DNA of 64,000 bases from Dehalococcoidia bacterium (GTDB taxonomy: Bacteria; Chloroflexota; Dehalococcoidia; Lucifugimonadales; UBA826). The stretch covers positions 93,489-157,488 of the forward strand of contig JAPYSB010000003.1 in NCBI GenBank assembly GCA_029936675.1, given 5' to 3'. The notes beneath the pieces are model-generated. The model made no database searches. It saw only the letters and a program-made list of their open reading frames with translations, and was not told the DNA's origin. Positions within the stretch are counted from its first letter, which is position 1. Every line of letters starts with the position of its first letter. Position numbers and translations under genes: made by a program. Below, piece by piece: positions 50,436-51,494 of this stretch.

Positions 50436-51494
50436 CTATCCAGCGACGTGTATTGTAGGGTCAGTGTCTGAAGGAGTGTAAACTTCCCCGATTATTTGGT
50501 TACTTAATGTGCCTGCCTCAGACAGCGACTGTTGTAATTTATCTGCCTTATCTGGATTGACTGAAATCAATAGGCCTCCAGAGGTCTGGGCATCAGATAA
50601 AAGGATTTTATCGTTTTCTGAGATTTCTTTATCCCACAACACCGTCGACTTTAGAGAATCAAGATTCCGCATAGTCCCTCCCGGTGCTATCCCTTGTTCC
50701 AATAGATCCGTTGTGCCCTCTATCACCGGTACTTTGGACTTATAAATCCGGGCACCTAGCCCACTGCCCTCCATCATCTCTCTCAGATGCCCCAACAATC
50801 CAAAACCTGTAACGTCAGAGCAAGCGTTTACGCCGACTGAAATCATAGATTCGGAGGCGGATTTGTTAAGCGCAGCCATAATTGCAACAGCATTTTCAAG
50901 AACCTCAGCAGCTACTTTTTCTTGTTTTCCGGCAGTAGTTATTATCCCAGTACCTATAGGCTTTGTTAGCAGCAAAAGATCTCCAGATTTGGAGGTGCTG
51001 TTTGCCGTTTGTGAGCCAGGATTTACTATTCCTGTTACTGAAAGCCCGTATTTTGGTTCAGCATCCACCACACTGTGTCCTCCGGCTATTACTATGCCGG
51101 CTTCGAGTGCTTTTGAGGCGCCACCTTTAAGGATTTCCCCCAGAATCGACATGTCTAAATCTGAAGGGAAACCAACCACGTTTAGTGCCGCAATGGGTTT
51201 GGCACCCATTGCATAGACGTCACTTAGGGAGTTAGCAGCAGCTATTTGTCCGAAGATAAATGGGTCATCTACAATCGGGGGAAAAAAATCGACTGTTAAA
51301 ACGACAGCCAAATCATCGCTTAACTTGTAAACGGCGGCGTCATCACTAGTCTTTGTTCCAACTAGTAGGTTTGGATGGGTCATATCTGGCAACTGGCTCA
51401 GAACCTGAGCCAGGTCGTCTGGACTTAGTTTAGAGGCTCAACCTGCACACGATGCAAGTTCTGTGAGCCTAATTTTTTCATGTTGATGCTGCAT
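50436..51494 (-). CDS. selD: Selenide water dikinase (selenophosphate synthetase), selenocysteine-containing
   Basis: The enzyme makes selenophosphate from selenide and ATP, the donor for Sec-tRNA. The uninterrupted part starts at about 51392, which would cut off the catalytic N-terminus. Reading upstream in the same frame to ATG 51494 gives 352 residues, the usual SelD length, with one internal TGA at codon 19. The local sequence IRLTELASCAGUASKLSP aligns with E. coli IRLTQYSHGAGCGCKISP, placing TGA exactly at the catalytic Cys17. It is read as Sec, not a nonsense mutation, because the whole frame is conserved and a hairpin follows. Motifs downstream (DDAAVY, GGHSVVD) are standard. A possible RBS AGGA precedes ATG. 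Confidence 0.93.
51393..51413 (-). promoter_or_regulatory. Candidate bacterial SECIS hairpin for selD
   Basis: Starting 24 nt after the UGA, CTGGCTCAG pairs perfectly with CTGAGCCAG around GTT: a 9-bp stem within the coding sequence. The apex reads CAGGUUCUG, close to the E. coli fdhF SECIS apex CAGGUCUGC, where SelB contacts the loop G residues. The spacing to the loop (33 nt) is within the range generally given for bacterial SECIS elements. Confidence 0.8.
51438..51440 (-). other. In-frame UGA recoded as selenocysteine (selD codon 19)
   Basis: The TGA lies between GGT and GCC codons in an otherwise open reading frame of the selD N-terminus. It aligns with the active-site cysteine of SelD proteins. 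Translation as Sec gives CAGU-ASK, a form known for selenocysteine-containing SelD in other bacteria and archaea. Confidence 0.88.

Follow-up and report, generated by a model that had tools for sequence, protein, structure and literature searches.

A selD gene with an in-frame TGA

The window analyzed here, a 64,000-nucleotide stretch of DNA from a Dehalococcoidia bacterium, hosts on its reverse strand a gene for selenide, water dikinase (selD; Table 1). Its frame runs from an ATG at position 51494 to a stop at 50436 and contains a single in-frame TGA (51440-51438). The selD gene of this marine bacterium very probably encodes a selenocysteine (Sec)-containing SelD by means of this in-frame UGA. 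When the TGA was given to the programs as Cys for profile scoring, the read-through protein scored 390.5 bits against the SelD profile TIGR00476 (cut-off 125) and aligned with positions 1-310 of its 311. The best solved relative is chain 3u0o_A, which we take to be E. coli SelD. In the alignment with this chain, codon 19 falls on Cys17 and the lysine of the stretch G-U-A-S-K around U19, K22, falls on Lys20. The TGA is part of two motifs, CxxU (codons 16-19) and UxxK (codons 19-22). The frame, the ATG, the TGA and the stop are as described in the initial annotation, which had also placed the TGA at the site of E. coli Cys17; the alignment agrees.

Table 1. Features of the selD locus, in positions of the window
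Feature	Position	Strand	Basis or remark
selD (selenide, water dikinase; 352 residues and a stop codon, Sec as residue 19)	50436..51494	-	frame, TIGR00476, 3u0o_A alignment
First 18 codons of selD	51441..51494	-	dropped by a gene call that starts at TTG 51392
In-frame TGA, codon 19, read as Sec	51438..51440	-	frame, alignments, motifs
Bacterial SECIS hairpin: 9-bp stem CTGGCTCAG/CTGAGCCAG, loop GUU	51393..51413	-	33 nt from UGA to loop

A mechanical list of open reading frames reports the same gene from a TTG at 51392, and so misses 34 codons, namely the first 18, the TGA and the next 15. This TTG lies 15 codons past the TGA and starts at the base directly after the hairpin. The expectation that automatic annotation would truncate selD is borne out to the extent of this list, the only annotation compared.

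Conservation of the TGA among relatives

A nonsense mutation or an assembly error could also leave a TGA at this place, in which case selD would be a pseudogene or would begin at TTG 51392, exactly the start given by the mechanical list. With such a start, the protein would lack both its catalytic residue and UxxK. The frame past the TGA remains open for 333 codons, and the TGA is found in other genomes. A scan of named genomes, in which the best 80 of 114 relatives were retained, returned seven relatives at 86-98% identity (L047-L053), titled SAR202 cluster, Dehalococcoidia or Chloroflexi, the nearest being SAR202-II-177A (98% identity). All seven retain both the TGA and its flanks, which places the TGA of selD beyond chance. 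In 30 further loci of the class, this codon is likewise a TGA and the flanking sequence is similar. A pseudogene or an assembly error is rejected on this conservation, and we regard it as exceedingly improbable. The conserved flanking residues and the presence of the same TGA in related genomes are both in line with what had been proposed from the sequence of the locus.

In total, we compared 110 loci (L017-L126), of which 109, our own included, could be aligned at codon 19; the remaining one (L121) stops short of it. Codon 19 is TGA in 97 loci and a Cys codon (TGT or TGC) in 12, so that the homologs show Sec/Cys exchange at the UGA position; an alignment with Sec- and Cys-containing families was among the checks suggested. 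Among viral contigs, which were also scanned, no relative was found.

To extend the comparison to the class, 197 genomes were sampled. They contain 136 SelD matches of at least 146 bits, distributed over 134 genomes. Codon 19 is covered by 134 of the 136 matches; 125 have a TGA inside and nine have none, with the position at exactly codon 19 established for the fetched loci rather than for all 125. Two SelD matches, L027 (genome G096) and one in G139, bear a second stop inside (2 TGA; 1 TGA and 1 TAA).

A SECIS-type hairpin downstream of the TGA

Immediately upstream of the TTG, the selD message can fold into a hairpin in which, with the UGA as index 0, bases 27-35 pair with bases 39-47 (CTGGCTCAG GTT CTGAGCCAG; 9/9 pairs). 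The model of bacterial SECIS elements given in the available text of PMC13188914 has a loop of 3-9 nt, an upper stem of 4-16 bp and 16-37 nt between UGA and loop, together with a G within the first two loop positions and a minimum free energy of at most -7.5 kcal/mol. The selD hairpin lies inside all these bounds, with a GUU loop (3 nt, G first), 9 bp, 33 nt and -14.2 kcal/mol. We also scanned the whole window for TGA-bridged frames with at least 15 codons before the TGA, at least 30 after it and at least 90 in total, followed by a SECIS-type hairpin of -3.5 kcal/mol or lower. Three frames passed, selD being by far the strongest and the next one reaching -4.7 kcal/mol.

Among 1666 positions taken from stop-free frames of the window (minimum length 250 codons), an energy of -7.5 kcal/mol is attained at 0.8% and one of -10 kcal/mol at 0.4%. 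None of 5000 synonymous recodings of the 27-nt hairpin fold as well (0/5000), this region having been picked after the hairpin had been seen, and when 60 nt of selD are recoded the energy is matched in 1.2-1.5% of recodings. One result counts against the hairpin: compared to dinucleotide shuffles, the folding of the 56-nt stretch that begins at the UGA is unremarkable (z -1.18; 27/200 shuffles as good).

The register of the stem is conserved within the class. In 38 class loci, our own included, a mean of 7.2/9 positions pair, compared to 1.9-4.0 when the register is slid by 1-3 nt. Changes on the two sides of the stem compensate each other, as seen when CTGGCTCAG/CTGAGCCAG of our locus is set beside CTGTCGCAG/CTGCGACAG in L023 and CTTGCCCAG/TTGGGCAAG in L046. 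Beyond the class this conservation is lost, the register pairing no better than slid ones in 59 Sec loci (mean 5.0/9 pairs and 2.2-5.1 slid), and the 12 Cys-type loci have a mean of 4.1/9 pairs in the same register and 2.2-4.6 slid.

The selenocysteine machinery of the genome

An organism that decodes UGA as Sec had been expected to encode SelA, SelB and tRNA-Sec elsewhere, and all three occur over their cut-offs in the genome from which the window comes (2.19 Mb in 53 contigs, completeness 96.5%). SelA lies on the window's own contig (445.5 bits by PF03841; 529.8 by TIGR00474, cut-off 267.9), SelB scores 351.3 bits (cut-off 242.25), and there is one tRNA-Sec match over the cut-off (65.5 bits compared to 47), which ARAGORN also calls as tRNA-SeC with anticodon tca. 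Since the tRNA-Sec and SelB models match below cut-off in 14/14 control genomes, only matches over the cut-off were counted.

Across the class, SelA is found over the cut-off in 125/197 genomes, and it is more frequent in genomes with a TGA-type SelD (109/124) than in the others (16/73). Within the window's order, nine of the 13 genomes, our own among them in the 13, have both SelD and SelA, three have neither and one has SelA alone. SelA over the cut-off is absent from 15/124 class genomes with a TGA-type SelD, including one that is 95% complete (G018); these may reflect assembly gaps or another Sec synthase.

Other candidate selenoproteins

We searched the genome for the families SelA, SelB, YbbB, CMD, AhpC-TSA, Molybdopterin, Rdx, UGSC and DSBA. 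Among 29 family matches, 22 have no internal stop and seven have a single TGA, in each case at the position of a redox motif. The seven are an AhpD-like gene, two types of peroxiredoxin, a SelW-like gene, two UGSC genes and one DsbA-like gene. The genome thus likely has at least seven further selenoprotein genes beside selD, a count that is a lower bound, the search having covered six candidate Sec families in addition to SelD. These genes bear out the earlier suggestion that the lineage has other selenoproteins.

The AhpD-like protein (L131) reads HCKYU, with U on the second Cys of CxxC. One peroxiredoxin (L133, on C36 of this genome, G000) reads FTGGU, its U aligning with the Cys in the FTGIC segment of chain 5c04. 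The second, peroxiredoxin-like protein (L136, on G000:C2) reads UGIC, with U three residues before the Cys aligned with chain 2cx3, that is, at the first place of UxxC. The SelW-like protein (L144) reads CVPU and scores 51 bits by PF10262 (cut-off 22.6) and 32.4 by TIGR02174, just under the cut-off of 34.2. In the DsbA-like protein (L147), which reads FAUPYVY, U falls on a Cys of chain 7dk9. As for the UGSC genes, L145 reads UGSC, while L146 (positions 385-2031 of the locus, on G000:C1) has UGTC in its place and encodes a 548-residue protein with one in-frame TGA. L146 is over the Pfam cut-off for the UGSC family and under that of NCBIfam (90.3 compared to 125), and its approximately 370 residues beyond the UGSC domain have no Pfam or NCBIfam match at E 0.001. 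A UGSC gene of this genome is located about 4 kb from the tRNA-Sec (G000:C3:115078-119654). A search for a Sec-type formate dehydrogenase with the Molybdopterin profile PF00384, which may not cover the Sec position, returned three matches with no stop inside.

A simple SECIS model with one unbroken stem was run on six of these seven genes, L147 being folded only. For L131 (-7.5 kcal/mol) and L145 (-8.2), the hairpin by itself is enough to pass, and L144 (-6.4) and L146 (-4.1) reach -7.5 kcal/mol only when flanking bases are included (-7.9 and -8.6). Of the two AhpC/TSA genes, L136 fails (-0.9 kcal/mol) and L133 has no fitting hairpin. Synonymous recoding of 60 nt sets SelD (p 0.012) and L131 (0.0055) apart, and does not do so for L133, L136, L144, L145 and L146 (p 0.24-0.54). 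The seven other candidates are thus better supported by homology and by where the TGA falls than by SECIS, for which the support is uneven.

The same family matches bear on how the UGA of selD is read. Near-cognate suppression, or decoding as Trp or Cys, is a rival to decoding as Sec. It is at odds with the 22/29 matches that need no reading of UGA and with the restriction of the other seven to one TGA each, at a redox-motif position; the Sec machinery and the SECIS-type hairpin also speak against it. We consider such a reading of the selD UGA very unlikely. A further possibility is a self-serving loop in which SelD would be the sole selenoprotein. SelD is indeed the single selenoprotein in several species that bear YbbB, as far as the accessible part of PMC1794560 describes them. 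In this 96.5% complete genome, the selenouridine synthase (YbbB/MnmH, TIGR03167) has no match at E 0.001, and the control matched in 7/14 genomes including E. coli. With YbbB not found and seven more TGA genes present, this possibility was rejected.

Given the frame, the UGA, the hairpin, the machinery genes and the conservation, the product of selD is almost certainly a functional selenophosphate synthetase with Sec as its catalytic residue, inserted through SECIS and SelB; for insertion and catalysis we rely on the family. The hairpin past the UGA would recruit SelB with Sec-tRNA(Sec), and ribosomes would then put Sec at codon 19. The resulting SelD, like its family, would make selenophosphate out of selenide and ATP, which SelA would use for Sec-tRNA(Sec). 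The charged tRNA would then supply not only SelD but, very likely, also seven or more further redox selenoproteins in this member of the SAR202 cluster.

Comparison with known systems

SAR202 is a widespread ocean group. The truncation of SelD in the mechanical list and the in-frame TGA in seven other redox genes suggest that its selenium dependence may be under-recorded. One may speculate, although this is less likely than not, that SAR202-type Dehalococcoidia act as a sizeable and hitherto unassigned source of the thiol-redox selenoproteins in ocean metagenomes, with at least eight selenoprotein genes per genome, and that their SelD uses CxxU as its active site, Cys16 being the resolving partner of Sec19. 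Within the literature collection searched, no paper turned up for selenoprotein with SAR202; a sponge-symbiont paper, which turned up under selenocysteine and SAR202, reports SelA and SelB in symbionts of various phyla in the portion available.

The Sec-SelD described here is a further example of a long-known selenoprotein family, and the enzyme itself is nothing new in principle. The high interest assigned to it in the initial annotation was overstated, since the family is already treated in the available parts of PMC1794560 and PMC2398784. According to the former, Sec-SelD and FdhA outnumber all other selenoprotein families of bacteria by a wide margin. The modest novelty is the SAR202 selenoproteome, here that of one SAR202-cluster genome, and the CxxU motif of SelD is a second small point of interest.

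Our SelD resembles known Sec-SelDs (TIGR00476) in family, UxxK motif, position of Sec, downstream hairpin and co-occurrence with SelA, SelB and tRNA-Sec, and differs in that it additionally has CxxU. This motif occurs in approximately 5.6% of the single-domain Sec-SelDs of ocean samples, as stated in the accessible text of PMC2398784. We found it in 29/38 class loci (with one unreadable case among the remaining nine) and in 32/59 Sec loci outside the class, an excess that may be due to sampling, since the loci had been selected for their similarity to a query that itself has CxxU. Cys-type SelDs, such as chain 3u0o, share the family and the aligned motifs but have Cys instead of Sec, and hence do not need a SECIS element.

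The other candidates also have known counterparts. The Global Ocean Sampling selenoproteome (PMC2398784) names SelD, SelW-like CxxU, AhpD-like CxxU, Prx TxxU, Prx-like UxxC, UGSC and DsbA, and we find all these families side by side in a single SAR202-cluster genome. In the main text of that paper, neither Chloroflexi nor SAR202 is mentioned. Within the class, dehydrogenases of Dehalococcoidales are annotated with selenocysteine, as seen in the sections of PMC4959059 available. Those Dehalococcoidia and our bacterium belong to the same class, in which UGA is decoded as Sec; however, the former are anaerobes with dehydrogenases, whereas here thiol-redox families and SelD are concerned.
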